A stretch of DNA of 64,000 nucleotides. Source: Psychroserpens mesophilus (GTDB lineage Bacteria > Bacteroidota > Bacteroidia > Flavobacteriales > Flavobacteriaceae). This document shows, piece after piece, positions 3,321-27,806 of the stretch. Each line of letters begins with the position of its first letter. Positions within the stretch are counted from its first letter, which is position 1. The stretch spans positions 310,001-374,000 of the forward strand of contig NZ_JXJP01000001.1 in the NCBI RefSeq assembly GCF_000826645.1, written 5' to 3'. Made by a program: the position numbers and the translations under genes. Under the pieces are notes generated by a model. That model saw only the letters and a program-made list of their open reading frames with translations. It was not told the origin of the DNA and did not search any database.

Positions 3321-4091
3321 ATGAGCATCTATTTTTTAGCATTTATAGGTTTAGTAGTTTTTGTAGGCTATGCTTTTTACAGAACCAGAAAAAAGAAAGC
3401 AAAACCATTTCCTGAATCTTGGCATACTATCATGTTACAAGAAGTTGAATTTTATAAGCTTTTAAGTACTGAAGAGCAGTTCCGATTTCAAAAACGCATG
3501 ATGCAGTTTTTAAATGAAGTCTATATTGATAGTGTTAACTTAGAAATCACAGAACTTGACATAATTTTTATTGCATCAAGCGCAGTAATACCGGTTTTTG
3601 CTTTTAAAGATTGGCATTATACCAAATTAAGTGGTGTGATTTTGTATCCTGATAATTTCAATGAAGATTTTGAGTTTTCAGATAAAAGTAAATCTAAACG
3701 AATAGCTGGCGTTGTTGGTACAGGTCGATTAGAAGGTAAAATGATTTTATCCAGAAAGGCATTACATCACGGATTTAGTAATGATAATGATGGTAGAAAT
3801 ACTGCGATACATGAGTTTATTCATCTTATTGATAAAATGGATGATAATATTGACGGTATTCCGGAAATTTTGATGAACAACGCATTTACTATTCCATGGT
3901 TGAAATTAATTCATGAAGAAATGGAAAACATTCACAGGAATAGATCAAAACTCAGAGCTTATGGAGCAACAAATCAAGCAGAATTTTTTGCTGTTGCTTC
4001 AGAATACTTTTTTGAAAGCCCAGAACGACTAAAAAAGGAACATCCTGAATTGTATACATTGCTTTCTAAAAGCTTTAGGGTGAACTTATAA
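3321..4091 (+). CDS. M90 family zinc-dependent peptidase (MtfA-like), membrane anchored
   Basis: A 256-residue protein with one N-terminal membrane segment (about residues 3-21, IYFLAFIGLVVFVGYAF) followed by a basic stretch, so the catalytic part probably faces the cytoplasm. The zinc-binding HEFIH motif sits in NTAIHEFIHLIDKMD, and NQAEFFAVASEYFFE downstream is typical of the MtfA/M90 family. E. coli MtfA is a soluble aminopeptidase that binds the repressor Mlc. The membrane anchor is common in Bacteroidota homologues, and their role is not established. The gene is transcribed away from guaD and ends just before the terminator palindrome at 4102-4121 and the left edge of the integrated element. 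Confidence 0.82.
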   Translation: MSIYFLAFIGLVVFVGYAFYRTRKKKAKPFPESWHTIMLQEVEFYKLLSTEEQFRFQKRMMQFLNEVYIDSVNLEITELDIIFIASSAVIPVFAFKDWHYTKLSGVILYPDNFNEDFEFSDKSKSKRIAGVVGTGRLEGKMILSRKALHHGFSNDNDGRNTAIHEFIHLIDKMDDNIDGIPEILMNNAFTIPWLKLIHEEMENIHRNRSKLRAYGATNQAEFFAVASEYFFESPERLKKEHPELYTLLSKSFRVNL

Positions 4092-4122: not shown

Positions 4123-4143
4123 TTTTAGTGGTGGTGCCTCCAG
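4123..4143. repeat. attL core: duplicated 3' end of tRNA-Phe
   Basis: 21 bases identical to 32183-32203, including AGTGGTGGTGCCTCCAG. Read on the minus strand it is the last T-arm bases, the 3' acceptor strand and the encoded CCA of tRNA-Phe. Only this fragment is present, so it is not a second tRNA gene. Inside it and continuing rightward, AGTGGT (4127-4132) and ACCACT (4145-4150) form an inverted pair that could be core-type integrase sites. Confidence 0.85.
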
Positions 4144-4274: not shown

Positions 4275-4298
4275 TGTCCCTTTTGTTGTCCCTTTTAA
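4275..4298. repeat. Left arm-type repeat pair (TTGTCCCTTTTG units)
   Basis: Two copies of a TTGTCCCTTTT unit spaced 12 bases apart, just upstream of the integrase start. Twenty bases of it (4275-4294) recur identically at 32114-32133 near the other end of the element, in the same orientation. Paired direct repeats inside each end, apart from the crossover core, are what arm-type binding sites of a tyrosine integrase look like. Confidence 0.6.
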
Positions 4299-4307
4299 AT
4301 TTTATTT

Positions 4308-5600
4308 ATGAGCAAAGCCATTCAGTCCACTTCAGGAACTATTAAATTTAGACTAAAAGATGTTAACTCTAAAACAGAAACTTCTATTATATTGGATTAT
4401 AGTTTTGGGAGAAACAATCGTCTTAAATTCGCTACAGGATATAAAGTTGCACCGCAAAATTGGGATAAAGCTAATCAAAGAATTAGAGCTATATCAACTA
4501 TTGAAAATAGAGAAAAAGTAAATAAAGACTTACTAAGGTTTTCATCCGAATTTGTTAATCAAATTTCTAACCTATCAGAAGCTGAGAAACAAAATAGAAA
4601 AATTCTCAAAAGTTTGTTAGAAAAAATAATTCGTGAAACTGAAGAGTTAGAAAAACCTATAACATCCTTTTTTGAGTTTGCGGATGATTACATAAAAATA
4701 AAAGAGAATCAAGCAAAAAATATTGGTGCTGTTAAATTAAGTCCAATTACAGTAAGGTCATATAAGCAAACTGTAAGTAGATTAAAGGAATTTAATAAGG
4801 AACTTAAATATGATTTGGATTTTGAATCTATTGATTTAAAATTTTATTACACCTTAATTCAGTACTTAGAAAAGAAAAATTACTCGATAAATACTATCGG
4901 TAAGCATATTAAAAACTTGATAACTATTCTAAACAGAGCATCAGAAGAAGGTGTTAATACTACTTTTAAATATAGGCATAGAGAATTTAAAGCAGTTTCT
5001 GAGGAAACGGTTTCGATTTATTTAACGGAATCAGAAATCGATGCATTATTTACTGCTGATTTGTCCAAAACAAAAGATTGGGAGCTTGCTCGAGACATTT
5101 TCTTAATTGGTTATTATACTGGTCAAAGAGTGTCGGATTATAATGGAATTACTAAAGAGCAGATTAAGGTTTTTAATGGTAAAGAGGTTTTTGAGTTTAA
5201 ACAAAAGAAGACTAATAAAAAAGTCTATGTACCAATACATCCAAGAGTAAAAGCTATTTTGAAAGATAGGTATGATGGTGGTCTTCCAAGAAAATATAAT
5301 GATCCTGATATTAATGAATATATCAAGGAAGCTGGTAGGGTTGCAAAAATTAATGAGCAAATTTCAGTCCAAAGAACAATAGGAGGGAAAAAAGTTAGTA
5401 AAGCTGTTCCAAAATATAGCCTAATTGTTTCACATACCGCTCGCAGGTCTTTTTGTACGAATGCATATTTGTCGAAAATGCCAACTATGGATATAATGGC
5501 TATTAGTGGGCATTCTACAGAGCGAGAATTCTACAAGTACATTAAAGTGACACCTCAAGAGCGAGCAGTTAAAATTGCTGACAGCGCTTTTTTTCAATAA
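4308..5600 (+). CDS. Tyrosine recombinase / integrase of the tRNA-Phe element
   Basis: 430 residues, the usual length for Bacteroidota site-specific integrases. It has an N-terminal arm-binding domain (about 15-100), a SAM-like core-binding domain (about 115-215) and a C-terminal catalytic domain. Catalytic residues are visible: Arg274 in YYTGQRVSD, the beta-hairpin Lys near KKTNKKVYVPIH, His376 and Arg379 in SHTARRSF, His402 in SGHSTEREF and the nucleophile Tyr411. It lies 164 bases inside attL, reading into the element, as expected for an integrase serving its own att site. All catalytic positions are intact, so it may be active. Confidence 0.95.
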   Translation: MSKAIQSTSGTIKFRLKDVNSKTETSIILDYSFGRNNRLKFATGYKVAPQNWDKANQRIRAISTIENREKVNKDLLRFSSEFVNQISNLSEAEKQNRKILKSLLEKIIRETEELEKPITSFFEFADDYIKIKENQAKNIGAVKLSPITVRSYKQTVSRLKEFNKELKYDLDFESIDLKFYYTLIQYLEKKNYSINTIGKHIKNLITILNRASEEGVNTTFKYRHREFKAVSEETVSIYLTESEIDALFTADLSKTKDWELARDIFLIGYYTGQRVSDYNGITKEQIKVFNGKEVFEFKQKKTNKKVYVPIHPRVKAILKDRYDGGLPRKYNDPDINEYIKEAGRVAKINEQISVQRTIGGKKVSKAVPKYSLIVSHTARRSFCTNAYLSKMPTMDIMAISGHSTEREFYKYIKVTPQERAVKIADSAFFQ

Positions 5601-5624: not shown

Positions 5625-6407
5625 ATGAATTATAAAGACGTATTTGTAGTAAATAAAATTCACTACAATAAATCTCAAGAAGATGTTGATTTAAATTATC
5701 AACTAAATAATTATGATTATTTAGAACCTAAGTTGGTCGATGATTTTTATCTCAAATACTTTGTGTATAAAATTTTATTTGAATTAGATATCTTAGAAAT
5801 TGATGATTTCTTGAGTTTTCATTTTGAAGAAGCTCAAAATAAAAAACTTTTTACTCAGATTATTAAACATAAGCTATTACAAAAAATAGATTATTTGGTA
5901 AATAATGCAAAAGCTTATATGCCGGAAGGAGGAAGTAATGATGAGATTAAATTGGAAGATGGATTTATAGAAACAAAAGGTAAAATCCTTAAGCCGCTTT
6001 TTGAAGATTATCTAATATCCCATAAAGTAGCCTGGCAAGAACTGAAAGAAAATATTATTTACAGGAAATCGATAATTGAAGATTTCATGAAAGGTGTTAA
6101 TCAATTACAAACTCAAAAGGAAGTAGGTGAAAAATTAGTGTGGTCTGGAAAACCTTCACATTTAGCATATTTTATTTCCCAATTAATTGAGGAAGGCTAT
6201 ATTGAGCCACCGAGAAAACGTAACGATGATATAAATTATCAGAAGCTATCAAATAGAATACTAAATTCTTTTGATTTTGCTAATGATATTCCATCTAATG
6301 AAACTTTAAAGAAATATGGCAATGTAGATGCTGAAAAGTATATAACATTAAATGAAAGATTTGTTAACCATGGTTTCCACTTACCTAATTTGAAAATTAT
6401 GGAATAG
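5625..6407 (+). CDS. RteC-like protein of Bacteroidota mobile elements (tentative)
   Basis: A 260-residue soluble protein, 24 bases after the integrase. The N-terminal two thirds are rich in acidic and aromatic residues and look helical. The segment around residues 167-192 (KLVWSGKPSHLAYFISQLIEE) resembles the C-terminal core of RteC, a regulator found in Bacteroides conjugative transposons, where a similar VW-G stretch precedes a helix. Many Bacteroidota islands carry such a protein next to the integrase. Its role here, perhaps in control of excision or transfer genes, is inferred only from resemblance and position. Confidence 0.45.
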   Translation: MNYKDVFVVNKIHYNKSQEDVDLNYQLNNYDYLEPKLVDDFYLKYFVYKILFELDILEIDDFLSFHFEEAQNKKLFTQIIKHKLLQKIDYLVNNAKAYMPEGGSNDEIKLEDGFIETKGKILKPLFEDYLISHKVAWQELKENIIYRKSIIEDFMKGVNQLQTQKEVGEKLVWSGKPSHLAYFISQLIEEGYIEPPRKRNDDINYQKLSNRILNSFDFANDIPSNETLKKYGNVDAEKYITLNERFVNHGFHLPNLKIME

Positions 6408-6430
6408 GTACCAGTACCTTTTAGTACCTT
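6408..6430. promoter_or_regulatory. Three GTACC repeats, candidate operator
   Basis: GTACC occurs at 6408, 6414 and 6424. The last two are part of a 10 bp repeat (AGTACCTTTT then AGTACCTTAA). They sit 20 bases before a TAGTTTTG promoter box and upstream of the HTH protein gene. A repressor-type site for that protein is a reasonable guess but not shown. Confidence 0.4.
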
Positions 6431-6449
6431 AAAAAATGTTGTTTGGTGG

Positions 6450-6457
6450 TAGTTTTG
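6450..6457 (+). promoter_or_regulatory. Probable -7 box before the HTH gene
   Basis: TAGTTTTG matches TAnnTTTG exactly, 28 bases before the ATG at 6486. No clear TTG lies 18-20 bases upstream. The GTACC repeats occupy the upstream side, where an activator or repressor would act. Confidence 0.45.
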
Positions 6458-6485
6458 TAATAGAAATAAACCCAAATAACATCAA

Positions 6486-6773
6486 ATGAAGTCAACACAA
6501 ACACACGTTTACCTAATAACTCCTGAGGAGCTTACAGATAATATCTTAATAGGTGTTGACAGTAGGTTAAAGAAGTTTTTTGATACATACCAGCCAACTG
6601 TAAAAGACGAGGAAGAGCTTTTGACAGTTGATGAGACAATTAAATTTTTGAAATGCTCTAAACAAGCACTTTGGAACTGGCGCAAGAATGGTATTCTACC
6701 CAGTTATAGATTAGGTAACCGTGTTTACTACAAAAAAAGTGATATATATCAAAAACTTAGAAAACAGGATTAA
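6486..6773 (+). CDS. Helix-turn-helix DNA-binding protein (excisionase / MerR-like)
   Basis: 95 residues. The C-terminal half (about 42-93) is a MerR/AlpA-type winged HTH (LLTVDETIKFLKCSKQAL, then NWRKNGILPSYRLGNRVYYKKSDI), the form commonly annotated as excisionase-family DNA-binding domain in Bacteroidota islands. The N-terminal 40 residues are unassigned. It is the first gene after the GTACC repeats and is followed one base later by a replication-type gene. Likely roles are directing excision or regulating the replication genes; the sequence does not decide between them. Confidence 0.75.
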   Translation: MKSTQTHVYLITPEELTDNILIGVDSRLKKFFDTYQPTVKDEEELLTVDETIKFLKCSKQALWNWRKNGILPSYRLGNRVYYKKSDIYQKLRKQD

Positions 6774-6774
6774 T

Positions 6775-7437
6775 ATGGTTGGATATGTACTCATACACAG
6801 GGATATAATGGATTGGGAATGGTACCAGTCTCCAAATGTATCACGATTATATTTCCATTTAATATTTAAGGTGAACTTTAAAGATAAAAAGTGGCAAGGA
6901 CACCTTGTTGAACGTGGTCAACTAATTACTTCAAACAATCACTTGGCAACAGAGTTAAAGTTATCTGTACAAGTTATAAGAACTGCATTGCAAAAGCTTC
7001 ATGAAGGAGGATACATCAAAATTAAAGCAACAAACAGATTTACGCTCATAACCCTTATCAATTATGATAAATTTCAATCATCTAAAGCTGAAAACAACAA
7101 GCCAGTTATCAATCAGGTAACAATCAAAAAACATACAAGTAACAATCAAATAACAACAACTAAAGAAAGTAATAAAGAAAATAAAACGAATAAAAAAACT
7201 ATTGATGATAGACGTGAAAGATTTAAAAAACAAGTTTTTAAACACTCTCAATATGAAATTAAAGTTTTAGAATCTTTTTATGATTATTGGAGTGAATTAA
7301 ATTCAGATAAATCTGAAATGCGTTATGAAACCGAGAGGTTTTTTGAAATTAAAAAGCGTTTAAAAAAATGGTTGGCAAATGAAAGAACTAATAAAATTGA
7401 GAATAAATCAAAAACTGAATTATTAACCAATAGATAA
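6775..7437 (+). CDS. Winged-helix replication-initiation-type protein
   Basis: I start this at the ATG at 6775, one base after the stop of the HTH gene (220 residues), because a frame extension to 6721 would only overlap that gene. Residues 1-100 (IMDWEWYQSPNVSRLYFHLI ... RGQLITSNNHLATEL ... VIRTALQKLHEGGYI) have the pattern of the winged-helix domain seen in phage and element replication proteins that work with a helicase loader. A Lys/Asn-rich linker and a short C-terminal helical domain follow. The DnaC-like ATPase gene 9 bases downstream supports a replication role. It has no relaxase or primase motifs. Confidence 0.65.
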   Translation: MVGYVLIHRDIMDWEWYQSPNVSRLYFHLIFKVNFKDKKWQGHLVERGQLITSNNHLATELKLSVQVIRTALQKLHEGGYIKIKATNRFTLITLINYDKFQSSKAENNKPVINQVTIKKHTSNNQITTTKESNKENKTNKKTIDDRRERFKKQVFKHSQYEIKVLESFYDYWSELNSDKSEMRYETERFFEIKKRLKKWLANERTNKIENKSKTELLTNR

Positions 7438-7446
7438 TCTGCTATA

Positions 7447-8175
7447 ATGAGAAGTAATGATTTTAAAAAGGCTGGTCAAATCATAAGTCAAATCAAAAGA
7501 AATACTAATAAATCAAATACCGATAATCAAATGAAACCCTTAAATGAATTTACAAAACAGGAATTATGGAAAGCTTTTTTGAAAACATTTAAAGAAATGT
7601 ATAATAAAGAATTTCATGAGGACAAAAATGTTTTAAATAATCTGAAACCGTTGTTTTTTTATTTTTTGAAAGATGAAAAGTTTTTTGAATGTGAAAATTT
7701 AAGAGCAGATATAAGTGCTCCTTCTTTCGAAAAGGGTTTTATGATAATAGGTGGTTATGGTTTAGGAAAGACAGATTATATGAAGGTTTTTCAAAACATC
7801 TTTAAAAATTACCCAAATTTGAGATTGAAGATTTATACCTCAAAAGAACTTGTGCATAAATATGAAATATGTCAAACACCATTGGACAAACAAAGTTTCA
7901 TTAAAGATGCTGAGCGGAAATTAATGTTTATTGATGATATTAGTTCTGAAAGAATCGCAAGTAATTACGGGCATATGGATGTCATCGATGAAGTATTAAT
8001 AAACCGTTATGACAAAAATCTTATAACATTTGTTTCTTGTAACTACACAACAAATAATAACTGCGCGAAACAAACATTGCAAGATCTCGGATTAAGATAT
8101 GGAGGTCGTATGTATGATCGTTTCCATGAAATGTTCAACATTATTGAATTTAAAGGATCAAGTTTTAGAAGATGA
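7447..8175 (+). CDS. DnaC-like ATPase (putative helicase loader)
   Basis: 242 residues. A P-loop GGYGLGKT spans residues 102-109 and a Walker B strand LMFIDDI ends with Asp163-Asp164, in the spacing of DnaC/IstB-type AAA+ proteins. The arginine-rich C-terminus (DLGLRYGGRMYDRFHEMF) resembles the sensor region of this group. DnaC-like proteins load replicative helicase onto DNA. Together with the winged-helix gene just upstream this makes a small replication module, which would let the excised circle copy itself. IstB transposition helpers share these motifs, but no transposase is present. Confidence 0.72.
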   Translation: MRSNDFKKAGQIISQIKRNTNKSNTDNQMKPLNEFTKQELWKAFLKTFKEMYNKEFHEDKNVLNNLKPLFFYFLKDEKFFECENLRADISAPSFEKGFMIIGGYGLGKTDYMKVFQNIFKNYPNLRLKIYTSKELVHKYEICQTPLDKQSFIKDAERKLMFIDDISSERIASNYGHMDVIDEVLINRYDKNLITFVSCNYTTNNNCAKQTLQDLGLRYGGRMYDRFHEMFNIIEFKGSSFRR

Positions 8176-8181
8176 TAAAAG

Positions 8182-8203
8182 GTTAAATAAAACTTTATTT
8201 AAC
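8182..8203. repeat. Inverted repeat GTTAAATAAA / TTTATTTAAC
   Basis: A perfect 10 bp inverted repeat with a 2-base centre, in the short gap between the DnaC-like gene and the zinc-finger gene. No T-run follows on either strand, so it is a poor terminator. It could be a protein-binding site or part of an origin for the adjacent replication module. Confidence 0.35.
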
Positions 8204-8234
8204 GTATTAAGAGTAAAAAAACACCCAAAAAACT

Positions 8235-8672
8235 ATGAAAACTGACAAAAACTGTAAATATTGTTATCAACTGTTTGAATCAAGAAGGAGTAATCATGTG
8301 TATTGCACAACGAGTTGTAAAACAAAAGCAAGTTATAAAAGAAATAACTACAAGTATATATCAGGTCACTACAAGAAACAAGATGTTGAAGTTGAAGAAA
8401 GCGGACAATTAATGATACCTGATAACGTGTCATCACAAATACAATCATTAGAGGATAAATTAGCTACTTTACAAGAAAGCTTAAAACCTACTATAAATGC
8501 TGCTGAAATAGGTAGTGCAGCAATAGGTTCTGTAACAGCCGATGCAACTATTTATGGATTAAAGAAACTATTTAATCCAAGTTCTTTACATGCAACTAAA
8601 GGAGATATTGAGAAATTGAAGAATAGAATTAACGATTTAAGTAATCTTATTACGAATATTAAAAATTTTTAA
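8235..8672 (+). CDS. Small protein with N-terminal Cys4 zinc finger and coiled coil
   Basis: 145 residues, not assigned to a family. The N-terminus has CxxC-x13-CxxxC (Cys7, Cys10, Cys24, Cys28) followed by a basic stretch KTKASYKRNNYK, the look of a small DNA- or RNA-binding zinc ribbon. Residues 66-82 form a heptad-like helix (SSQIQSLEDKLATLQES). A small-residue hydrophobic stretch (about 88-106) and a second amphipathic helix (about 119-142) follow. It sits downstream of the replication module. An accessory DNA-binding role is plausible but unproven. Confidence 0.6.
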   Translation: MKTDKNCKYCYQLFESRRSNHVYCTTSCKTKASYKRNNYKYISGHYKKQDVEVEESGQLMIPDNVSSQIQSLEDKLATLQESLKPTINAAEIGSAAIGSVTADATIYGLKKLFNPSSLHATKGDIEKLKNRINDLSNLITNIKNF

Positions 8673-8716
8673 ATGGATTCTATTTTAATTAAAATACATA
8701 CTTGCTTGCATAATAA

Positions 8717-10363
8717 TTGTCTTGCCAATTAATTAAATCAACTAATTTTGTTATAAATTTAAAAAATTATAACCCTTTTCATTTGCAATTTCTACAAGAC
8801 TTATTAGACAATAAAGAGCCTTCCAATCGATGGCAAGATTATAGAACCTTTTGTGACAATATTAAAAATGTTGATATAGACCTTTATGTTAAGGCACTAC
8901 CAGAATTACTTCAAAATTTAAAAAGTAATTATCCTACAAGAAATCTTCAAATAGCCATTACTCGCGAAGCAAAAGAGGATGCTTCATTTGGAAGAGAAAT
9001 TTATTTAAAAACACTTGAAACGAAAAATCCTGATTCGTATTTTACATTAATGGATATTCTATCTGGATTATATCATTCAGACCAAAAGTTTGCAATGGAT
9101 GAGATTAAGCGCCTAATTGAAGATGATAACCTAGGCTTAAAAGAAATAGGAATAAAATCTATCGTTAAAATTGACTTGTTAGCGAAAACAACACCAAAAA
9201 CATTTGTAAGCTGGATTGAAAAACAATTCAATAGTATTATTAATAATAAGACTCTTGAGGAGTTATGGCCATCAGTTTTCTTTACCATTAGAAATAAAAG
9301 AAATGAATTAAAAAATGCAGATAAAATTATAGATAAGCTATCAAGTATTAATACTATTGAAATTCAATTAGAGCTCATTTACTTTTTGGATTACAATATA
9401 GATTTAGGCAACGAAATACACCTCTTTAAAAAATATCTTCCATTGTTGCTTCACATTGATATAGAACATGCAGGAGCGTATAATCAATTGGCTTATCGAT
9501 TGGAAAATGTGGCTAAAACCAATTTAGATTTGGTAGTTGGTTTTATTACAGATTGGGTAGGGATAAGTCTAAAAAATGCTAGAAAAATAGAATATTTCAG
9601 CCATTTGCTGAATACACTTTGCGATGATTTTTATTCAGATTTCCAAAAGCTATATACAAATTGGTTAAATAAAGACAATCCAAATTTTCATATTGCCATT
9701 TTTGAAATGAATAGTGCTAGATATATGAGGGATTTATCAGGATTGACGGTTTCAGAAGTTCTAATAAAGGACTTTTCAGATTACGATATTGAATATATCA
9801 CGTACAAAATACTTGCCTATGTTTATGATAAAGACACCTCTTTATCTTTGATATATTCCATACTCGAACAAAAAGTAGACAATAAAGAGGTTGTAATTTT
9901 CTTAGCTGATTTATTTATTAACCACTTAATTTTTAATTATTATTCAACTATTGAGTTTTTAAATTTAAAAAAGAAGACTGCCAATAGAAAACTTAAAAAA
10001 ATAATAAAAGATATTGTTGATGAAGGGGAAGATAAATACAAGGCGTATTCAGATCTAGAAAACCTAAAAGAGTTTGCGCCTTCAGAGAGAAGAATGATAT
10101 ATTATAATAAAATACAGAATAGAAAATTTAATAAATCCTATAAAGAGAGTGAATCAGAAAGTTCATCATTTTTAAGTATGATTACGAATATCAATTACAG
10201 AACGGGAAAGTCTACATTTTCAAAATACCAAGGCAAATACACCGAAAAGATGACACCAGCACTTATTTCGCATAGTGGCGAAATGCCAAGAGGCGAATTT
10301 ATAGACCCCATAGGTCAAGCAACAGAACGGTTACTATGGCAAAATTTTAAAAGAAGGCAATGA
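8717..10363 (+). CDS. Unknown protein, helical-repeat type; first gene of candidate three-gene system
   Basis: I do not recognise this 548-residue protein. It appears almost entirely helical, with irregular repeats of about 35-45 residues over residues 30-420 that suggest a HEAT-like scaffold. The C-terminal 60 residues differ: a Ser/Glu-rich linker (ESESESSS), then a compact, conserved-looking tail (SKYQGKYTEKMTPALISHSG, EMPRGEFIDPIG). There is no signal peptide or membrane segment. The reading frame opens with TTG at 8717 right after an in-frame stop and has no ATG for the first 111 codons. A promoter-like pair of boxes at 8722-8750 lies inside it, so the true start may be further down, for example TTG 8783. 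It overlaps the next gene by 4 bases (ATGA). Confidence 0.7.
   Translation: MSCQLIKSTNFVINLKNYNPFHLQFLQDLLDNKEPSNRWQDYRTFCDNIKNVDIDLYVKALPELLQNLKSNYPTRNLQIAITREAKEDASFGREIYLKTLETKNPDSYFTLMDILSGLYHSDQKFAMDEIKRLIEDDNLGLKEIGIKSIVKIDLLAKTTPKTFVSWIEKQFNSIINNKTLEELWPSVFFTIRNKRNELKNADKIIDKLSSINTIEIQLELIYFLDYNIDLGNEIHLFKKYLPLLLHIDIEHAGAYNQLAYRLENVAKTNLDLVVGFITDWVGISLKNARKIEYFSHLLNTLCDDFYSDFQKLYTNWLNKDNPNFHIAIFEMNSARYMRDLSGLTVSEVLIKDFSDYDIEYITYKILAYVYDKDTSLSLIYSILEQKVDNKEVVIFLADLFINHLIFNYYSTIEFLNLKKKTANRKLKKIIKDIVDEGEDKYKAYSDLENLKEFAPSERRMIYYNKIQNRKFNKSYKESESESSSFLSMITNINYRTGKSTFSKYQGKYTEKMTPALISHSGEMPRGEFIDPIGQATERLLWQNFKRRQ
8722..8750 (+). promoter_or_regulatory. Consensus Bacteroidota promoter for the three-gene operon
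   Basis: TTG at 8722-8724, 18 bases, then TAATTTTG at 8743-8750: an exact match to the -33/-7 consensus. Transcription would start near 8755, which is inside the open frame of the first gene. The translational start of that gene is therefore probably downstream of the frame's TTG at 8717. Confidence 0.6.
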
Positions 10364-12045
10364 GATTTTTACTGAGTGAATATATTAATCTTTTAAAAGA
10401 AGATAAAGAACTTGATGTGTTGCTGACTGATCTGCTAGTTGGAATGAAATTTACAACTATCTCAAAGCCAATGAAAGGTCGTCAATTTGGTGTAGATATT
10501 TCAGCTGTAGGTATTGATCCAGAAGATGGTATTAAGAAGGTGTTTTTGTTCGCTGTAAAACAAGGTAATCTAACAAGAACCACTTGGGATGGAGATGTCA
10601 ACGCCATACGCTCAACTCTAAACCAAATTAAAGACACGTTTATTCCAACATCACTAACAAATCGTTTAAAAAAACTTCCTAAAAAAATAATAGTTTGTAC
10701 TAATGGTGTTATAAATCAAAATGTTTTAGTTGATTGGACACAATATATCGACCAGAATACTACAGATGCTGTTGAATATGATTTTTGGGGTACAGGCGAA
10801 ATAACTGCAATGCTTGACGACTATCTTGTTAGTGAAAAACTATTTCCACAAGAATATCAATCTTTATTAAGAAAATCTTTGGCATTTTTAGATTTACCAG
10901 ATTATGATTTATCACATTTCTATACGCTGATTCAAAAAATTTTAGACAAGCAACCCAAACAAAAAAGACAAATATTAAAAAAATTAAGACTGGTACGATT
11001 ATGCCTTAACATTATATATAAATGGTCTCAAGACAATAATAATTTGAAACCTTCAATTTATGCAAGTGAACGATGTTTGTTACTAAGCTGGCACTTTATG
11101 CAAGAAGGTAATCATTTGGAGAAAAATTTTGTAAGACAGGAATTTTACAAAATCCATTCTTTAAAAAGAAATATAGGTGTCTATTATTTTAACAAAGTTG
11201 CTAAACATTACAAAACAGAGCACAGTATATATAAATACAGCAGAAATAGTCTAGAGTACAGTCTTAATGTTTGGGAAGAAATAGGAATTATAGCAACAAT
11301 AGGGTTGACGGAAATACAAGAGTTTAGAATCCATTATAGAGAAGGTAATGAAGAGCATGCTCAAACATATTACCAAAGCGCTCTTTCAATTAGTAACGGA
11401 TTATGTTTGTTTATAAAAAACAATCCACCTTCAAAATATCCAGAATACGATGTACATAGTATTGAAATAGCTTTAGCACTTAACTTAATGAATTTTACAA
11501 GAAACTTTAACCCAGCCAAAAAATGGATTTTTGAAATGACTTTAGGTTTTAATAACAGATATAAAATAAATAAGTTTTTCCCATTGTTTAGAAAAAGTTA
11601 TGATAAGCTGGTGGATATTCATAATGGAGATGAAGAATGTGAAATTCAGTCTTCAATGATAGTTCTTGTATTGGCAGAATACACTTTAGTTTTAAAGGAT
11701 GAAGACCTATATCAATTTGTCCGCAAGATCCCTACTGAACTTTTTCCAGATTTGAACTTGCAAATATGGTTTCCACTTGAAGAAATGGAAAATAAAATAT
11801 GTGTTCAGGATTATAGTCGTGGCGAAGGAACACTAAAACATTCTGTAACAATATACGAGAATGTAGAAGAGTACAAAAAAGAAATTGTATCAGAAATGGA
11901 ACTCTTCGGACCAGAAAAGGACTTTAAAATTTTTAAACATAGTTTCGACATTGTTGCTCACGTTGCAAGTAGGCACTACAAAAGCCAACCTTTTCCTTTA
12001 ACGTGGCGAGTTTTAATGAAACAAGAAGTCTCAACAAAAGAATAG
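10360..12045 (+). CDS. Unknown protein with possible PD-(D/E)XK-like N-terminal domain; second gene of candidate system
   Basis: 561 residues, not recognised as a named family. Residues 30-165 alternate strands and helices in the way of restriction-endonuclease-like folds: GVDISAVG with Asp46, then a strand VFLFAVKQG with Lys67, then KKIIVCTNG and EYDFWGTGEITAMLDDYL. Asp46 and Lys67 could be the D...xK pair, but the usual Glu/Gln two residues before the Lys is Ala65, so nuclease activity is uncertain. Residues 185-560 are helical and TPR-like (EEHAQTYYQSALSISNG). The start ATG overlaps the previous stop, so the two proteins are probably made together and may form a complex. Confidence 0.7.
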   Translation: MRFLLSEYINLLKEDKELDVLLTDLLVGMKFTTISKPMKGRQFGVDISAVGIDPEDGIKKVFLFAVKQGNLTRTTWDGDVNAIRSTLNQIKDTFIPTSLTNRLKKLPKKIIVCTNGVINQNVLVDWTQYIDQNTTDAVEYDFWGTGEITAMLDDYLVSEKLFPQEYQSLLRKSLAFLDLPDYDLSHFYTLIQKILDKQPKQKRQILKKLRLVRLCLNIIYKWSQDNNNLKPSIYASERCLLLSWHFMQEGNHLEKNFVRQEFYKIHSLKRNIGVYYFNKVAKHYKTEHSIYKYSRNSLEYSLNVWEEIGIIATIGLTEIQEFRIHYREGNEEHAQTYYQSALSISNGLCLFIKNNPPSKYPEYDVHSIEIALALNLMNFTRNFNPAKKWIFEMTLGFNNRYKINKFFPLFRKSYDKLVDIHNGDEECEIQSSMIVLVLAEYTLVLKDEDLYQFVRKIPTELFPDLNLQIWFPLEEMENKICVQDYSRGEGTLKHSVTIYENVEEYKKEIVSEMELFGPEKDFKIFKHSFDIVAHVASRHYKSQPFPLTWRVLMKQEVSTKE

Positions 12046-12049
12046 AATA

Positions 12050-13153
12050 ATGTCAAATCCAATAAAGCAACATTATATACCACGTTCATATTTAAAGAAC
12101 TTTGCAGTTGAAGGAAGAAAAAGAAATCATTTTGTCGATGTTTATAAAATGGACAATGATATGCTTTTAGAGCAAATAAGCACAAAAGATATTTGTTTTG
12201 AAAAAAACATTTATACAATTCCTGCTGAATCAGATGAAGTAAAATACGCCTTGGAAAAACATTATGCTGAAAATGTTGATAGCGAGTTTCCAAAAATATA
12301 TAAATTACTTGTAGATGAAAAGGTATTGACAGTTAGTCAAGAGCAAAAAATTCAAGTACTATATGTATGTCTATCATTATATTTTCGTACACCAAGAATT
12401 TTAAATCTTCAAAAAGGTATGAATAAACAAATCTTTGATAGGGCAGCTTATACAGCAAATGAACATGGTTTGATAAAAATGAATTTATTTGGAGAGAAAA
12501 TGGAATTTCATATTGATGAAATAGAGGAGGTTAAAAAACAGTACGATGAACGTTCAAGAACTGCCTTCTTAGTTAACCACCTTGAACAATGGGGAAACTT
12601 TGTTAAATACAAATACGATTGTACAATAAATGTAATTAAAATAGAAGATTCAAATGCGCCAATAATTACTTGCGATAATCCAGTTTCAATTAGGCATTTT
12701 GAAACTAATAAATTTCAAGGTTTATATGATCCCAAAGCAGTTATTACTTTGCCCTTGGATCGTTCACATTATTTAGAGATTCATCCTAATGATTACGCAG
12801 ATGGACAAACGAGAATTAATCGTCTTACACAAGACAGAGATTATGTCTTTACAACAAATGGGGTAACACAACAGAATGCTGAAAATTTGTTAGTTGCTTA
12901 TAAAGGTGATATTGATAAACATTTTGAAATTCAAAACCATTATGAAAAGCCAGAAAATGGAGAAGAGTTTTTGAAAAAAGCTAAATACAGAGCAGAACAA
13001 GCTCTGATACTATTTGATATTTTAAAGAAAAAAGGATTTGTTTCCAAGGAATTTATTGGTAAGTTAAAAGAGTTATTAGAACACCCTTATTGTAAGGATG
13101 ACATACAAATGCTGAAGTATAAAAAAGTACTTTCTAAAATGGGTAAGTGGTAG
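12050..13153 (+). CDS. DUF4238 family protein; third gene of candidate system
   Basis: 367 residues beginning four bases after the previous gene. The N-terminal signature KQHYIPRSYLKNFA is the hallmark of DUF4238, a widespread family of unknown function. Other conserved-looking parts are FRTPRIL (about 117-123), the region INVIKIEDSNAPIITCDNPV (about 195-214), ITLPLDRSHYLEIHP, and a hydrophilic helical C-terminus. It is predicted soluble. The tight spacing makes it part of the operon beginning at 8717 rather than of the metal genes, which start after a 68-base gap with their own regulatory repeats. Whether it is essential to the system or simply a passenger cannot be told here. Confidence 0.85.
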   Translation: MSNPIKQHYIPRSYLKNFAVEGRKRNHFVDVYKMDNDMLLEQISTKDICFEKNIYTIPAESDEVKYALEKHYAENVDSEFPKIYKLLVDEKVLTVSQEQKIQVLYVCLSLYFRTPRILNLQKGMNKQIFDRAAYTANEHGLIKMNLFGEKMEFHIDEIEEVKKQYDERSRTAFLVNHLEQWGNFVKYKYDCTINVIKIEDSNAPIITCDNPVSIRHFETNKFQGLYDPKAVITLPLDRSHYLEIHPNDYADGQTRINRLTQDRDYVFTTNGVTQQNAENLLVAYKGDIDKHFEIQNHYEKPENGEEFLKKAKYRAEQALILFDILKKKGFVSKEFIGKLKELLEHPYCKDDIQMLKYKKVLSKMGKW

Positions 13154-13221: not shown

Positions 13222-13617
13222 ATGAAAATCTTTTTTTCCATATCAATGTCTATTTTACTCTTTTTTCAAGGGATAAGTATAGATATGGACTTTTGTGGAC
13301 CAATTAAAGAAATTTCAAACGTTATTACCCATTATCAAGACCATAAAGTTTATGGTGACTCTTTCCTTGAATATGTGGTTGAAGATTACTTTGGCAGTGA
13401 TACTCAAAATGAAGAGCATCATCATAACCCAGATAAGGAAAATACACCTGTTCATTCCCATAATCAGTGTTGTCATCCTTTAGTATTAATTATTGCCAAC
13501 AATAATTTAGCTTTAAACAATCGACTAAAGTTTGAAGAGAAAAAACAATACAATTTACATAAAGTAAACTTCACTTCCAGATATTTGGAATCACTTTTCC
13601 AGCCACCAAGGGCGTAA
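13222..13617 (+). CDS. Small exported His/Cys-rich protein of the metal operon
   Basis: 131 residues with an N-terminal signal sequence (about 1-20, FFSISMSILLFFQGISI). The middle is rich in possible metal ligands (EEHHHNPDKENTPVHSHNQCC) and the C-terminus ends LFQPPRA. Short periplasmic proteins of this type often head czc-like operons in Bacteroidota, and the CC plus PP pattern recalls the HYC_CC_PP group encoded at 22318, although HYC itself is replaced here by MDFCG. Probably a periplasmic metal sensor or binding protein. No catalytic function is visible. Confidence 0.65.
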   Translation: MKIFFSISMSILLFFQGISIDMDFCGPIKEISNVITHYQDHKVYGDSFLEYVVEDYFGSDTQNEEHHHNPDKENTPVHSHNQCCHPLVLIIANNNLALNNRLKFEEKKQYNLHKVNFTSRYLESLFQPPRA

Positions 13618-13739
13618 TTCAGTTTTTTTAAAGGATAACTATATCCAATTTTGAGCCTATATGGTTCTTTTCATTTCGTGTAATTCAATTTTTATATCAG
13701 AATTGTAGCGAAAAGTTTAACTGAATTAAAACATTTTCT

Positions 13740-16700
13740 ATGATTAATAAAATCATTGATTTTTCAATCAATAACAAATTCATTATTGGTTTGCTAACGC
13801 TTACCATTATTGGAGCAGGTATTTGGAGTATGACCCAAGTACCCATCGATGCTGTTCCAGATATTACTAACAATCAAGTACAGGTCATTACACAAGCACC
13901 AAATTTAGGTACAGAGGACATTGAACAATTTGTAACCTATCCAGTAGAAGTTGCAATGAGCAACCTACCTGATGTAAAGGAAATCCGTTCCATTTCTCGT
14001 TTTGGTTTATCTGTGGTTACTATTGTTTTTGACGATGATATGGGAACCTATCTACCACGTCAATTAGTAGCTGAAAAGCTAAACGAAGTTAAAGAACAAA
14101 TTCCAAGTGGTTTTGGCGAACCTGCTATGGGACCTATCTCTTCTGGTTTAGGAGAAATCTATCAATACACACTTAAAGTAAAACCAGAGTATAAAGACAA
14201 ATATTCAGTTACTGATTTGCGCACAATGCAAGATTGGATTGTACAACGTCAAATGGCAATGGTAGAAGGTGTAGTTGAGGTAAATGCCATAGGTGGAAAA
14301 ATTAAACAATACGAAGTTGCTGTTGATCCAAACGAATTAAAAGCTATTGGTTTAACAATTACCGATGTTTTTGAAGCCCTTGAAGCCAACAATCAAAACA
14401 CAGGTGGTGCTTATATTGAAAAGAACCATCAAGCCAATTTCATTCGTGGAGAAGGTTTGGTACGTAGTTTAGATGATATTAAAAAGATCACGGTTAAAAA
14501 CTCAAGCAATATTCCAATTACTGTTGGTGACATTGCTACGGTACAGTATGGTGCTGCTATTCGCTATGGTGCATTAACACAAGATGGTGAAGGTGAAGTC
14601 GTAGGTGGTTTGGTCATGATGCTTAAAGGCGCTAATTCAAACGATGTTATTGAGAATGTAAAAGTGCGAATGGCTCAAATTGAAAAATCATTGCCAGAAG
14701 GTGTCATTATCGAACCTTTGTTAGACCGAAGCAAATTAATAGCAGAAACGACTTCAACGGTTGCTACCAACCTAATTGAAGGTGCATTAATAGTAATATT
14801 TGTTCTTATTTTCTTATTAGGCAATTGGCGAGGTGGTTTAATCGTTGCTTCAACAATTCCATTATCACTATTATTTGCATTTATACTAATGAATGTGTTT
14901 GATGTTTGGGCAAACCTAATGAGTTTAGGAGCAATAGATTTCGGAATTATCGTAGATGGTGCTGTGATTATTGTAGAAAGTACCGTTTTTCTAATCGCTT
15001 CGCAACTCTATAAGAAGAAAAAATTGACATCCAAAGAACGTGATGGTGTTGCAGCAAATGCTTCAAAAAAAATGATGAATGCTGCCTTTTTCGGTCAACT
15101 GATTATTTTAATTGTTTTTCTACCCATATTAGCATTAGAAGGCATTGAAGGCAAAATGTTTAAACCAATGGCATTGACCTTTATTTTTGCTATGATTGGC
15201 GCAATGGTACTCTGTTTAACCTATGTTCCAATGATGTCTGCATTGGTGTTAAGAGCGCCAAAAAGTGCCAAAAAATCTTATGGAGATAGATTTGTGCTTT
15301 GGGTTGAGGACAAGTATCAACCCTTATTGGTAAAAGCATTGAAAAAAGGAAAATGGATTATTGGTATTGCAGTTGTGCTATTCGGAATTACAGTCTTTAT
15401 GTTCACGAGAATGGGCGGCGAATTTATTCCACAATTAGATGAAGGCGACATTGCATTTCACGCCATTTTAAAACCCGGAAGCTCACTTACAGAAACGATT
15501 GAAACGACTACAAAAATTGAACAAATTGTAAAAGCAAAGTTTCCAGAAGTTGAGAAAATTGTAAGTAGAATTGGTGTTGCAGAAATTCCAACAGATCCAA
15601 TGCCAATGGATTTAGCCGATGTTTTTGTAATTCTAAAGCCAAAAAGCGAATGGACAACCGTTGAAACAAAAGACGAACTCATTGAAAAAATGAAAGAAGC
15701 TGTGGAAATAATTCCTGGTGTTAACTATGAATTTACCCAACCTATTGAAATGCGATTTAATGAACTGCTCGAAGGTGTTAGAGAAGACATTGCTATTAAA
15801 CTTTATGGTGAAGATATAGAGGTGCTATCTCAAAAAGCAGAAGAAATATCTAAAATTATTGCTGGTACAGAAGGTATTGGCGATATGAAAGCGGAAGCTA
15901 CAACAGGTTTGCCGCAAATGACGATTTCGTATAACAGAAATAAATTGGCACAATATGGACTTCAAATAAATACCTTAAATCAAATTGTACAATCAGCATT
16001 TGCAGGAGGAACAGCTGGCGTTATTTTTGAAGGTGAAAAGCGGTTTGATTTGGTGGTTAGGTTAAGTTCTCGTAATCGTAAGGACATAACAGATGTTCAA
16101 AATTTGTTTGTCAACTTACCTTCTGGTGTGCAAATTCCGCTTCGCGAAGTAGCTGATATAAGTTACAAAGGTGGTCCAATGCAAATCAGTAGAGACAATA
16201 CCAATAGAAGAACCTATGTAGGTATTAATGTAAGAGGTCGTGATGTTAAATCATTGGTAGGCGAAATCAAAACTAAATTAGATGAACAATTAGAACTACC
16301 TTCTGGTTATTTCATTCGTTATGGTGGTGCTTTTGAAAATTTAGAACGTGCCAGTAACCGTTTACAAACCGTTGTCCCTATTGCCTTGTTACTCATTTTT
16401 GTACTGATTTATTTTGCATTAAAATCCTTACCACAAACCTTGATGATTTATATAGCAATCCCAATGGCAACCATTGGAGGTGTTGTAGCGTTATGGTTGC
16501 GTGATATGCCTTTTAGTATTTCGGCAGGAGTCGGTTTTATTGTGTTGTTTGGTGTTGCAGTATTAAACGGATTAGTAATGATTAGTGGTTTGAATGAGTT
16601 AAAAGAAGAAGGAGTTACCAATCTAAAAGATAGAATTATAGAAGGTACAAAGCGAAGAATTAGACCTATAATGTTAACTGCTTTTACAGATGTTTTAGGC

Positions 16701-18074
16701 TTTCTGCCTATGGCAATTTCAGCATCGGCTGGTGCAGAAGTTCAGCGACCTTTAGCAACTGTTGTAATTGGTGGTTTGTTAACCTCTACACTATTAACAT
16801 TATTCGTTTTACCTATATTATATCATTGGGTAGAAAACAAATCATTCAATTTTAGGGCTAACAAAAAGGTAATTACAGTTACTGCTATGGTGGCTTTTAT
16901 GTTTTTGTTGCCAATAACAGGAAATGCGCAAAAAATAAATGATTCGTTACCAATTATTTCGATGCAAGAAGCTGTAAAATTGGCTAAAGAAAACTATCCA
17001 TGTTTAAAACAACAACAACTCGAAATTGATAAGCAACTACAATTAAAAGGAACGGCTTTCGATTTTGGTACTACTCAAATTTTTACTGGTGGTGAAGAAA
17101 TCAATAATGGATCAGGTATTTACACCACTATTGGAGTTGGTCAATCAAATATAGACGTGTTTGGTATAGCACCAAAGCGGAAATTACTGGAGCAACGTAT
17201 TCAGTTAGCCCAAAAAGCCTATCAGCTTTCAGAATTAGATTTAGAATTGGAAGTAAAGAAAGCGTGGGCAAATGCTTTACAGAGTAAAAGGAATTATAAT
17301 TTATACAAAGAGTTAGATTCCATCTATACCAACTTTGAAAAAGCAGTAGCACTAAATTATGAAGTCGAAGCCATTTCTAAACTGGAATATTCGGCAGCCA
17401 AAAATCAAGCTTTACAGATTCAGAATAAATTTTTGCAATCAAAAAGTGAATATGTTATTGCTTTACAACAATTAAACTTGTGGTTGATATCAGATGATTT
17501 TTATACGGTTTCAGATGAAATTGATATAGAGAGCGAAATAAATGTAGAATCCTTTAGTATTGAAGCACACCCTTTATATACTGTTTCTCAACTTCAACTC
17601 ACAGAGGCAGAAGCAAACTTTAAAGCTGCCAAAGCTGAAAATTTACCAAAGTTCAACCTTCAAGGTGGTTTGCAAAACGTAAACGGAAATTCAGGGTTTT
17701 ATACCTATCAAGCTGGTATTTCCATACCATTTTTATCTGGTACAACAAAAGCACAAGTTAGAACAGCAAAAATTGATAGACAAATTGCCGAAACTAATAT
17801 GCAGTTTAAGCAAAAGGAGGTACAATCTAAATTTAATCAAGCTAAAGAGAATTACCAAAAATGGAAAATATCTTGGCTGTTCTATAAGAATGAAGTATTA
17901 CCACTTATTAAAGAACAAAAAACGGGTGCATTGTTTGCTTATAGAGAAGGAGAGATTGACTACACAGCATTTACACAACTTATAAAAGAAGCTATTCAAT
18001 CAGAATTGGAAGCACAAACGGCATTAGTGAACTATTTAGAAAGTACATTTCAATTACAATATTTTAATCAATAA
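13740..18074 (+). CDS. CzcA-type heavy-metal RND pump fused to a TolC-like outer membrane factor
   Basis: 1444 residues. Residues 1 to about 1035 are a complete HME-RND transporter: an N-terminal membrane helix, two periplasmic loops, and TM4 with DFGIIVDGAVIIVE, whose D...D...E pattern is typical of CzcA pumps for Zn, Cd or Co. From about 1040 a hydrophobic, signal-like stretch (ITVTAMVAFMFLLPITGNAQ) leads into a TolC-type domain (about 1065-1444, MQEAVKLAKENYPCLKQQQL). Inner-membrane pump and outer-membrane channel are thus one polypeptide, as seen in other Bacteroidota. It would need cleavage at the internal AQ site, or an unusual topology, to work. The adaptor gene begins 4 bases later. 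Confidence 0.9.
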   Translation: MINKIIDFSINNKFIIGLLTLTIIGAGIWSMTQVPIDAVPDITNNQVQVITQAPNLGTEDIEQFVTYPVEVAMSNLPDVKEIRSISRFGLSVVTIVFDDDMGTYLPRQLVAEKLNEVKEQIPSGFGEPAMGPISSGLGEIYQYTLKVKPEYKDKYSVTDLRTMQDWIVQRQMAMVEGVVEVNAIGGKIKQYEVAVDPNELKAIGLTITDVFEALEANNQNTGGAYIEKNHQANFIRGEGLVRSLDDIKKITVKNSSNIPITVGDIATVQYGAAIRYGALTQDGEGEVVGGLVMMLKGANSNDVIENVKVRMAQIEKSLPEGVIIEPLLDRSKLIAETTSTVATNLIEGALIVIFVLIFLLGNWRGGLIVASTIPLSLLFAFILMNVFDVWANLMSLGAIDFGIIVDGAVIIVESTVFLIASQLYKKKKLTSKERDGVAANASKKMMNAAFFGQLIILIVFLPILALEGIEGKMFKPMALTFIFAMIGAMVLCLTYVPMMSALVLRAPKSAKKSYGDRFVLWVEDKYQPLLVKALKKGKWIIGIAVVLFGITVFMFTRMGGEFIPQLDEGDIAFHAILKPGSSLTETIETTTKIEQIVKAKFPEVEKIVSRIGVAEIPTDPMPMDLADVFVILKPKSEWTTVETKDELIEKMKEAVEIIPGVNYEFTQPIEMRFNELLEGVREDIAIKLYGEDIEVLSQKAEEISKIIAGTEGIGDMKAEATTGLPQMTISYNRNKLAQYGLQINTLNQIVQSAFAGGTAGVIFEGEKRFDLVVRLSSRNRKDITDVQNLFVNLPSGVQIPLREVADISYKGGPMQISRDNTNRRTYVGINVRGRDVKSLVGEIKTKLDEQLELPSGYFIRYGGAFENLERASNRLQTVVPIALLLIFVLIYFALKSLPQTLMIYIAIPMATIGGVVALWLRDMPFSISAGVGFIVLFGVAVLNGLVMISGLNELKEEGVTNLKDRIIEGTKRRIRPIMLTAFTDVLGFLPMAISASAGAEVQRPLATVVIGGLLTSTLLTLFVLPILYHWVENKSFNFRANKKVITVTAMVAFMFLLPITGNAQKINDSLPIISMQEAVKLAKENYPCLKQQQLEIDKQLQLKGTAFDFGTTQIFTGGEEINNGSGIYTTIGVGQSNIDVFGIAPKRKLLEQRIQLAQKAYQLSELDLELEVKKAWANALQSKRNYNLYKELDSIYTNFEKAVALNYEVEAISKLEYSAAKNQALQIQNKFLQSKSEYVIALQQLNLWLISDDFYTVSDEIDIESEINVESFSIEAHPLYTVSQLQLTEAEANFKAAKAENLPKFNLQGGLQNVNGNSGFYTYQAGISIPFLSGTTKAQVRTAKIDRQIAETNMQFKQKEVQSKFNQAKENYQKWKISWLFYKNEVLPLIKEQKTGALFAYREGEIDYTAFTQLIKEAIQSELEAQTALVNYLESTFQLQYFNQ

Positions 18075-18078
18075 GACA

Positions 18079-19284
18079 ATGAAAAACACACGATATATAA
18101 TTTTAGCACTACTAACAGTTTCATTTTTAGTTGTTGCTTGCGGAAATAAAGAAAGCCATAAAGAGGGTGATGGTCATTCCCATAACGAAGTACAAAAAAC
18201 TGAAGAAAACGATGGACATAGCGAAGGCGAAGAAGTGATGCTTTCACAACAACAGTTTGAAGCCTTAAAAATGAAAGTTGACACCTTGGCATTACGCAAT
18301 ATGAGTGGTTATGTTGAAGCAAATGGCACTTTGGAAGTTCCACCACAAAGTGAAGCAGCCATAACATCAGTAGTTGGCGCAAATGTAGTTTCCATAAAAG
18401 TGATTGAAGGCGATAAGGTGAACAAAGGTCAAGTGGTAGCTTATCTTTCACATCCAAATATTATTCAAATGCAAACCGATTATTTGAATGCTTTTAGCAA
18501 TAGTAATTTTTTAAAGAAGAACTTTGAGCGTCAGCAAAAATTATATGATGCAGGAGTTGGCTCTGGTGCAAATTACCAAAAAGCTGAAGCAGAATATGAA
18601 GCTTCTAAAGCTATGGTCAAGGGATTGGAAGCGCAATTGAGATTATTAAACATTAATTCGTCATCAGTACGAAATGGAACAATTGCTCAAAGTATATCAT
18701 TACGCAGCCCAATAGATGGTTTTGTTCAAAAAGTTGAAGTAAAAACAGGACAGTATGTTGAACCACAAACCGAGCTCTTTGAAATCGTAAATACCCATCA
18801 TGTTCACGCAGATTTAATGGTTTTTGAAAAAGATGTTTATAAAGTAAAAAAAGGTCAAAAAGTAACCTTTAATGTCCAATCAATGCAAGATGAAGAATTA
18901 ATAGCTGAAATATATTCCGTTAGTAAAACATTTGAAGATAATCCTAAAGCAGTACATGTACATGCTGAGATTGAAAACAAAAAAGGGAATCTAATTCCTG
19001 GAATGTATATTCAAGGAAAAATTCAAACTGAAAATGCTGAAACTATGGCAATGCCTGAAAGTGCTATAGTAAAAGAAGGTGATCGGTTTTTTGTGTTTTC
19101 AGCAGAAAAAGAAAATGAAGATTGGAGTTTTAAACCTTATGAAGTGCATTTAGGAGCAAAAGATGGTAATTGGATATCAGTTCAATTTTCTGAATATATA
19201 AAACCAAATACAAAATTTGCTTATAATAATGCCTATTACCTTATCGCAGAAATGAAAAAAGGAGAAGCTGAACACGAACATTAA
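18079..19284 (+). CDS. CzcB-type RND periplasmic adaptor lipoprotein
   Basis: 401 residues. A lipoprotein signal ends at VVACGNK (lipid-carrying Cys about residue 21), followed by a His/Asp/Glu-rich stretch (HKEGDGHSHNEVQ) suited to metal binding. The core is a membrane fusion protein: a barrel-sandwich half (VVSIKVIEGDKVNKGQVVA), a coiled-coil hairpin (about 130-200), the second lipoyl half (SPIDGFVQKVEVKTGQYV) and a beta-barrel region. It would link the CzcA pump to its TolC part. It is the second gene in a run of three tightly packed genes ending with the Fur-family regulator. Confidence 0.9.
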   Translation: MKNTRYIILALLTVSFLVVACGNKESHKEGDGHSHNEVQKTEENDGHSEGEEVMLSQQQFEALKMKVDTLALRNMSGYVEANGTLEVPPQSEAAITSVVGANVVSIKVIEGDKVNKGQVVAYLSHPNIIQMQTDYLNAFSNSNFLKKNFERQQKLYDAGVGSGANYQKAEAEYEASKAMVKGLEAQLRLLNINSSSVRNGTIAQSISLRSPIDGFVQKVEVKTGQYVEPQTELFEIVNTHHVHADLMVFEKDVYKVKKGQKVTFNVQSMQDEELIAEIYSVSKTFEDNPKAVHVHAEIENKKGNLIPGMYIQGKIQTENAETMAMPESAIVKEGDRFFVFSAEKENEDWSFKPYEVHLGAKDGNWISVQFSEYIKPNTKFAYNNAYYLIAEMKKGEAEHEH

Positions 19285-19286
19285 TT

Positions 19287-19703
19287 ATGCAAACAATAGA
19301 ACAAGTATTAGAGTCAAAAGATATACGTGTTACGGCAATGCGTTTACTTATTTATAAGTTTCTTGCAGAAAAGGAGGTTGCTGTTACGCTGAGTGATATA
19401 GAACATGCTTTTGTAAAAGCAGATAGAACTACCTTGTACAGAACTATTAAAACTTTTGAAGAAAAGGATATTGTACATCAAATAGACGATGGGACGGGTA
19501 TAACAAAATATGCTTTATGTGAAAATGGTTGCAATTGTGAAATTGAAACTGACTTGCATTTACATTTTCATTGTAATAACTGTAACGAAACCATTTGCTT
19601 AACAGAACATAAGATTCCCCAAATTAAAGTGCCAGAAGGTTTCGTTTCAGAAAATGTCAATTTGGTGGTCAAGGGTATTTGTGATAAATGTAGTGGACAA
19701 TAA
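19287..19703 (+). CDS. Fur-family metalloregulator
   Basis: 138 residues, the usual Fur size. A winged helix fills residues 1-80 (ITVTAMRLLIYKFLAE-type start and RTTLYRTIKTFEEKDIVHQI as recognition region). The C-terminal dimerisation domain has His and Cys ligands (HLHFHCNNC near residues 89-98, and ICDKC near the end), the structural zinc site of the family. Being co-transcribed with a Zn/Cd-type pump suggests that it senses those metals. Repeats of TTGCAA type before the operon and just after this gene may be its operators. Confidence 0.88.
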   Translation: MQTIEQVLESKDIRVTAMRLLIYKFLAEKEVAVTLSDIEHAFVKADRTTLYRTIKTFEEKDIVHQIDDGTGITKYALCENGCNCEIETDLHLHFHCNNCNETICLTEHKIPQIKVPEGFVSENVNLVVKGICDKCSGQ

Positions 19704-19720
19704 TTGCACTTCCATTGCAA
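19704..19720. promoter_or_regulatory. TTGCAC/TTGCAA repeat pair, candidate Fur-family operator
   Basis: TTGCA-CTTCCAT-TGCAA is an inverted repeat and also two near-identical hexamers 11 bases apart. It matches the pattern at 13164-13192. It lies between the Fur gene and the DUF3703/P-type ATPase genes, where it could control the latter. Confidence 0.45.
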
Positions 19721-19758
19721 GTATTAGTATTATATTTTTATAATCAAAACAATTGGTA

Positions 19759-22073: not shown

Positions 22074-22084
22074 ATTAAGTAAAA

Positions 22085-22234
22085 ATGTCACATTATCGAA
22101 GTAATAAGAAAAAATTTAGAAAATCAAAAAAGTCAAATAAGCGTATTGTAACTTTAAAAGATAAAGTTGTTGCAGTGTTAGCTTTTGTAGGTTTATTTAT
22201 AGCTTTATTATTGTTAATGAAATTTGTGCTTTAA
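22085..22234 (+). CDS. Small basic single-pass membrane protein (49 residues)
   Basis: The frame from ATG 22085 encodes a strongly basic N-terminus (SNKKKFRKSKKSNKR) and one membrane helix (VVAVLAFVGLFIALLLLMKF), ending at 22234. It starts 11 bases after the P-type ATPase stop, in the same direction. The positive-inside rule puts the basic end in the cytoplasm. It may be a small partner of the ATPase. Evidence is limited to position and composition, but an open frame with such a clear layout is unlikely by chance in AT-rich DNA. Confidence 0.5.
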   Translation: MSHYRSNKKKFRKSKKSNKRIVTLKDKVVAVLAFVGLFIALLLLMKFVL

Positions 22235-27803: not shown

Positions 27804-27806
27804 GCA

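Follow-up and report, generated by a model that had tools for sequence, protein, structure and literature searches.

The question raised by this locus is whether three tightly linked genes of Psychroserpens mesophilus form a new defence system, as an initial annotation had suggested, or belong to something already described. The stretch of DNA that was analysed (the window) covers 64,000 nucleotides (contig NZ_JXJP01000001.1, positions 310,001 to 374,000), and the genes occupy positions 8717-13153 of it. Judged by their sequences, the first two encode Olokun (OloA-OloB), a two-gene anti-phage system whose protection is known from the literature only, and the third is a separate defence-type gene of the DUF4238 family. 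As a member of a known system the locus is ordinary; what makes it unusually informative is the setting, a 28-kb integrative element in a tRNA-Phe gene (window 4123-32203). The open reading frames lie at 8717-10363, 10360-12045 and 12050-13153 on the forward strand, all of them uninterrupted, and these coordinates agree with the 4-base overlap and the 4-base gap described earlier. The features of the locus are as follows:

8783-10363, forward strand: OloA, 526 amino acids from a TTG start, matching the PADLOC OloA profile; start set by relatives.
10360-12045, forward strand: OloB, 561 amino acids, matching the PADLOC OloB profile; N-terminal endonuclease-like domain and helical repeats.
10360-10842, forward strand: residues 1-161 of OloB, predicted restriction-endonuclease-like domain; E14, D19, D46 and K67 invariant, E17 nearly invariant.
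12050-13153, forward strand: DUF4238 protein, 367 amino acids, Pfam PF14022; independent defence-type gene marking the right-hand edge of the swappable slot.
8722-8750, forward strand: Bacteroidota-type promoter-like match TTG-N18-TAATTTTG, found as a pattern match.

OloA matched the PADLOC profile PDLC03925 with an E value of 6.9e-71 (residues 17-547 of 548, counted from position 8717, against profile positions 68-595 of 596), and OloB matched PDLC03926 with 5.7e-154 (residues 1-554 against 1-555 of 556). Neither protein had a Pfam or NCBIfam family at an E value of 1. These matches bear out the proposed defence module and overturn the idea that its family was new. PMC10121019 attributes Olokun to an earlier discovery paper, for which PMC12926258 cites Millman et al. 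2022; the latter groups it with systems of unknown mechanism, PMC12592470 describes it as not thoroughly characterised, and a table in PMC10855318 puts it under nuclease activity.

The pairing of the two genes was followed through 205 OloB relatives at an E value of 0.001, the best 120 of them listed, and through 32 OloA relatives drawn from the candidates sharing most words. At 31 of the 32 genome loci, OloA was the gene immediately before OloB, in the same orientation; the remaining contig begins within OloB. The first two genes recur as a unit in varied mobile elements. The two genes overlap by 4 bases across the genome loci, or by 17 in one subgroup. Plasmid pairs of Photobacterium and Halioglobus share the 4-base overlap, as do those of Rhizobium, Agrobacterium and Phaeobacter, whose upstream genes were taken as OloA by position and a 13-15% alignment, without a profile scan; the upstream gene in genome G277 was also counted without one. 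The PADLOC profiles matched all 10 distant proteins scanned, including both members of the divergent pair in genome G218, the OloA of which was missed by the profile built in this analysis. Two viral contigs encode a 32% identical OloB with OloA upstream, and a search of the phage collection gave no match. Like other Olokun loci, the window locus has both proteins matching over most of their length in the same gene order, usually with the 4-base overlap; its OloA lacks some 50-70 residues at the N-terminal end relative to the profile of 596 positions. Two plasmids carry altered versions: the OloA of a Klebsiella plasmid (L088:4015-4917) has only 300 amino acids and matches just the C-terminal half of the profile, and a Tolypothrix plasmid (L083) has two ISAs1 transposase genes between OloA and OloB, with a NACHT NTPase close by.

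The frame of the first gene is open over the 548 residues of the initial annotation, but the most likely start of translation is the TTG at 8783, giving 526 residues, because most of the closer relatives start at the residue encoded there, because this TTG is kept in relatives, and because the TTG at 8717 falls inside the promoter-like match. All 15 relatives that were checked keep the codon: 14 have a close OloA (71-97% identical), and one is from Zobellia (L046, 43%). TTG-N18-TAATTTTG, the Bacteroidota promoter consensus, is matched exactly at 8717-8750 or 8722-8750; since dinucleotide shuffling of the 110-bp gap also produced such a match in 123 of 5000 trials, it lends modest support to the later start.

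How might OloB act? The predicted model of the protein (predicted local distance difference test, pLDDT, 88.8; predicted template modelling score 0.78) shares the fold of the restriction-endonuclease-like domains of FokI, MspJI and AF1548 over residues 1-161, in a comparison with these structures rather than a search. The record title of AF1548 gives no known function for the protein; its fold is nuclease-like. According to the model, the N-terminus of OloB has the core fold of the PD-(D/E)XK superfamily, as proposed in the initial annotation, which had also placed D46, K67 and A65 correctly. Residues were counted in the 132 sequences left after removal of 8 repeated rows from 140, which gave 14 best-conserved positions. 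The putative catalytic Asp and Lys, D46 and K67, were kept in 130/130 and 131/131 sequences, E14 and D19 in 129/129 each, and E17 in 128/129. The Asp-Lys spacing is like that of such enzymes. Unlike the three reference domains, the window OloB has no acid or Gln before X-K, and it has a helical C-terminal part in place of a DNA-recognition domain of the FokI or MspJI type.

Several points weigh against the nuclease reading of OloB. A Foldseek search with the OloB model gave no PDB match at an E value of 0.001 or better; the sequence set, 12 proteins added to the top 120 of 205 relatives, leans to near relatives; and the canonical (D/E)-X-K motif is broken at A65. Among 131 distinct sequences, 129 have A, T, V, I, S or L at this place, two have E and none has D or Q. 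What we claim is thus the fold with a variant of the active site rather than the canonical motif. The same replacement would suit a domain that is catalytically dead and serves for DNA binding alone, with toxicity or blocking coming from something else. This we consider unlikely, as the joint fixation of D46, K67, E14, D19 and E17 is unexpected for a mere binder, and a divergent OloB branch (L011 and L013; G218 and G277) has E-L-K where other OloB proteins lack the acid.

For OloA, comparison with PDB profiles gave weak matches to armadillo/HEAT-type repeat proteins (best E value 0.015), and the protein is probably a HEAT/ARM-type helical repeat with a conserved C-terminal part. Conservation climbs along the chain from about 0.5 to 0.8 in the family alignment; compared between phyla, it starts near 0.3 and reaches about 0.45 in the last third, in keeping with the conserved C-terminal tail noticed at the outset.

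On the whole, we think it likely that Olokun and an independent DUF4238 protein fill an exchangeable slot of the tRNA-Phe element and work in the following way. OloA, a HEAT/ARM-like scaffold, would sense a product of the invader or a feature that it exposes, and its conserved C-terminal part would hold and control OloB. The endonuclease-like domain of OloB would cut DNA via D46 and K67, with an acid of the first helices (E14, E17 or D19) replacing the residue missing at position 65. DUF4238 would act on its own as a separate defence layer. As the OloB model names E14, E17, D19, D46 and K67, the nuclease mechanism is directly testable.

The setting of the genes between an element backbone and metal cargo, recognised in the initial annotation, is now bounded by 21-bp repeats, with an integrase at the left and metal-efflux genes following. 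The parts of the element are:

4123-4143, no strand: left 21-bp attachment (att) direct repeat, 100% identical to 32183-32203.
4308-5600, forward strand: tyrosine integrase (Pfam Phage_integrase 7.2e-14, Phage_int_SAM_5 9.5e-14).
6486-8672, forward strand: backbone genes before the slot, with same-order homologues in related elements, comprising the next four entries.
6486-6773, forward strand: HTH_17 protein of the backbone.
6721-7437, forward strand: winged-helix-like protein, labelled from a match below the curated cut-off.
7447-8175, forward strand: DnaC/DnaI-like ATPase, labelled from a match below the curated cut-off.
8235-8672, forward strand: backbone protein of 145 amino acids.
13222-31546, forward strand: metal-efflux cargo (resistance-nodulation-division, RND, pumps, outer-membrane factors, membrane-fusion proteins, a Fur-type regulator and a P-type ATPase).
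32183-32203, no strand: right att repeat, overlapping the 3' end of tRNA-Phe (32189-32264, reverse strand).

Pfam matched 7 of the 8 cargo genes on which it was run, and the families together with a heavy-metal-binding domain suggest that the pumps carry metals. The 21-bp repeat stands beside the integrase with 0-1 mismatch in two of eight related loci (L135, L136) and with 3-4 mismatches in two more (L137, L142); it was not found in the other four. A second direct repeat (25 bp, 96%; 4275-4299 and 32114-32138) may represent integrase arm sites. Immediately left of the element lies an M90-type metallopeptidase gene (3321-4091, Pfam 1.5e-67).

Among 397 family genomes, 73 had matches to the backbone DNA, ten of them (including the window's own) over long stretches; the 63 with short matches only were left out of the counts. 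To the right of the backbone, different defence genes lie at one place in these elements: Olokun in the window's genome and G230, Avs3 in G163, a type IIG restriction-modification system in G130, Druantia III in G261, type I restriction enzyme genes in G296 (with a methyltransferase) and G308, BREX in G357 and AbiH in G070. The AbiH assignment comes from a PADLOC match spanning just 29 residues and a Pfam match (4.7e-27) spanning most of the protein. The arrangement varies in detail, the restriction gene of G308 lying about 3 kb past the backbone, one gene intervening in G261 and G357, and G296 being without the 145-residue backbone gene. One element of the ten, G262, speaks against a defence slot, its five scanned genes showing no defence system and only a WYL-domain match. 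PADLOC matched 16 of 22 slot genes from the eight relatives other than G230 at 1e-5 or better, against 1 of 41 other window genes (3.8e-7); as the slot genes were hand-picked, mainly larger ones adjoining the backbone, this is a contrast and not a test.

The Olokun-DUF4238 block was also found outside the backbone, at 97.6% DNA identity and with a different left flank, in an uncultured Flavobacteriaceae genome, Hyunsoonleella ulvae, an uncultured Psychroserpens and Winogradskyella luteola. In these four genomes the block is followed by a module related to the window's second RND module, in Hanstruepera and Winogradskyella undariae by the first. The contents of the slot have probably been exchanged between elements, the direction and route of exchange being inferred. 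In having a fixed backbone with variable defence genes in one place, the slot resembles the hotspots of phages, satellites and islands described in PMC9122126 and PMC12629846, the latter naming Olokun and DUF4238 among the systems of Pseudomonas island hotspots. It differs from those in belonging to a Flavobacteriaceae tRNA-Phe element, with metal-efflux cargo to the right and DUF4238 at the junction. With its constant backbone on one side and metal cargo on the other, the slot provides a natural series of elements that differ in their defence systems, useful for studying the joint movement of defence and metal resistance in Flavobacteriaceae, and looking in it may turn up new systems.

Its carriage by an integrative element would also fit an operon that serves the element, against competing plasmids and elements or for its own maintenance, rather than one that acts against phages, as would the relatives on plasmids, among conjugation genes in Phaeobacter and near ParA/ParG genes in Klebsiella. 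We regard this as quite unlikely, given that related elements hold established anti-phage families at the same place.

The third gene matched PF14022 with an E value of 1.6e-35 (123.3 bits against a cut-off of 27; residues 6-285, profile 1-279 of 281), and its predicted model has a pLDDT of 92.3. The sole viral structure match of the model at an E value of 0.001 or better was an uncharacterised protein of Stenotrophomonas phage Smp131, a P2-like phage (E 9e-6, TM scores 0.49/0.58). This match and the near-full coverage of the profile liken the gene to the DUF4238 single-gene defence of a P2-like hotspot, where, according to Rousset et al. 2022 (PMC9122126), a single DUF4238 protein protected against T7. 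Unlike the one described there, the window gene sits at a slot edge on a metal-cargo element, with operon-like spacing behind other systems.

In the family survey DUF4238 occurred in 37 of 397 genomes and an OloB match in 18, 14 of them strong; the four weak ones were left out of the counts. In only 5 of the 37 does DUF4238 follow Olokun immediately and in the same orientation. Of the 30 loci from these 37 genomes, 19 have close homologues (E about 1e-100 or better), which are preceded by Olokun on the same strand (5) or the other strand (1), pAgo with a 244-residue protein (5), Avs3a/b with that same protein (1), a DUF4365 gene with an OloB stub (1), a P-type ATPase (1) or three unnamed genes of 303, 258 and 236 residues (5). 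pAgo and Avs3 were identified by scan in one genome each, the other pAgo genes being 83-95% identical to the scanned one. The preceding gene lay 3 to 30 bases away in 18 of the 19, and in 17 of them genes for metal transport come no more than about 3.5 kb later. The pAgo and Avs3 loci begin to resemble the window in DNA sequence at 12041-12050, where DUF4238 starts; for L095 this point is 11947. The unit is OloA-OloB rather than the three genes first proposed, and DUF4238, whose close homologues follow several unrelated defence systems, is a separate gene.

DUF4238 might even be a shared plug-in, constant at the right edge of the slot and working with whichever upstream system recombination brings, be it Olokun, pAgo or Avs3 with the 244-residue partner, or the unknown sets. 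The tight spacing, the start-codon breakpoint and the OloB stub in L095 would then reflect selected coupling and not only convenient homology for exchange, a proposal that we hold to be quite unlikely. Also quite unlikely is a working third Olokun component in this lineage: close spacing is retained in close relatives, and a same-strand copy lies directly downstream in 13 of the 32 Olokun loci, all with an OloB at least 84% identical to that of the window (frame split in L021), a feature not shared by Olokun generally, but no close same-strand copy was found in Olleya (L027, OloB 89%) or at 18 more distant loci, where distant forms could be missed and L034 has one on the opposite strand, and the T7-protective protein and the homologues behind other systems argue the same way. 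A Pfam scan of 10 downstream genes at distant Olokun loci gave no DUF4238.

Some neighbours of DUF4238 in place of Olokun deserve mention. The 244-residue protein, located between pAgo or Avs3 and DUF4238, is 93-100% identical in five genomes and 82% in a sixth, with a 32% relative following a type IIG system (L090:9406-10140, L091:9163-9897 and L136:9285-9992 for the protein and its relative); its L090 copy matched no family at 1e-5, and it is a possible unrecognised defence partner. The three unnamed genes (L096-L098, L101, L110), whose L098 copies had no PADLOC family at 0.01, are a candidate undescribed system. In L095, from the same genus, a 904-residue DUF4365 protein (6203-9358) takes the place of Olokun, and an 80-residue reading frame with an OloB tail precedes DUF4238, which looks like the fossil of one exchange. 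The window's own genome (G000) carries a second, distant DUF4238 gene (contig C72:7895-8629).
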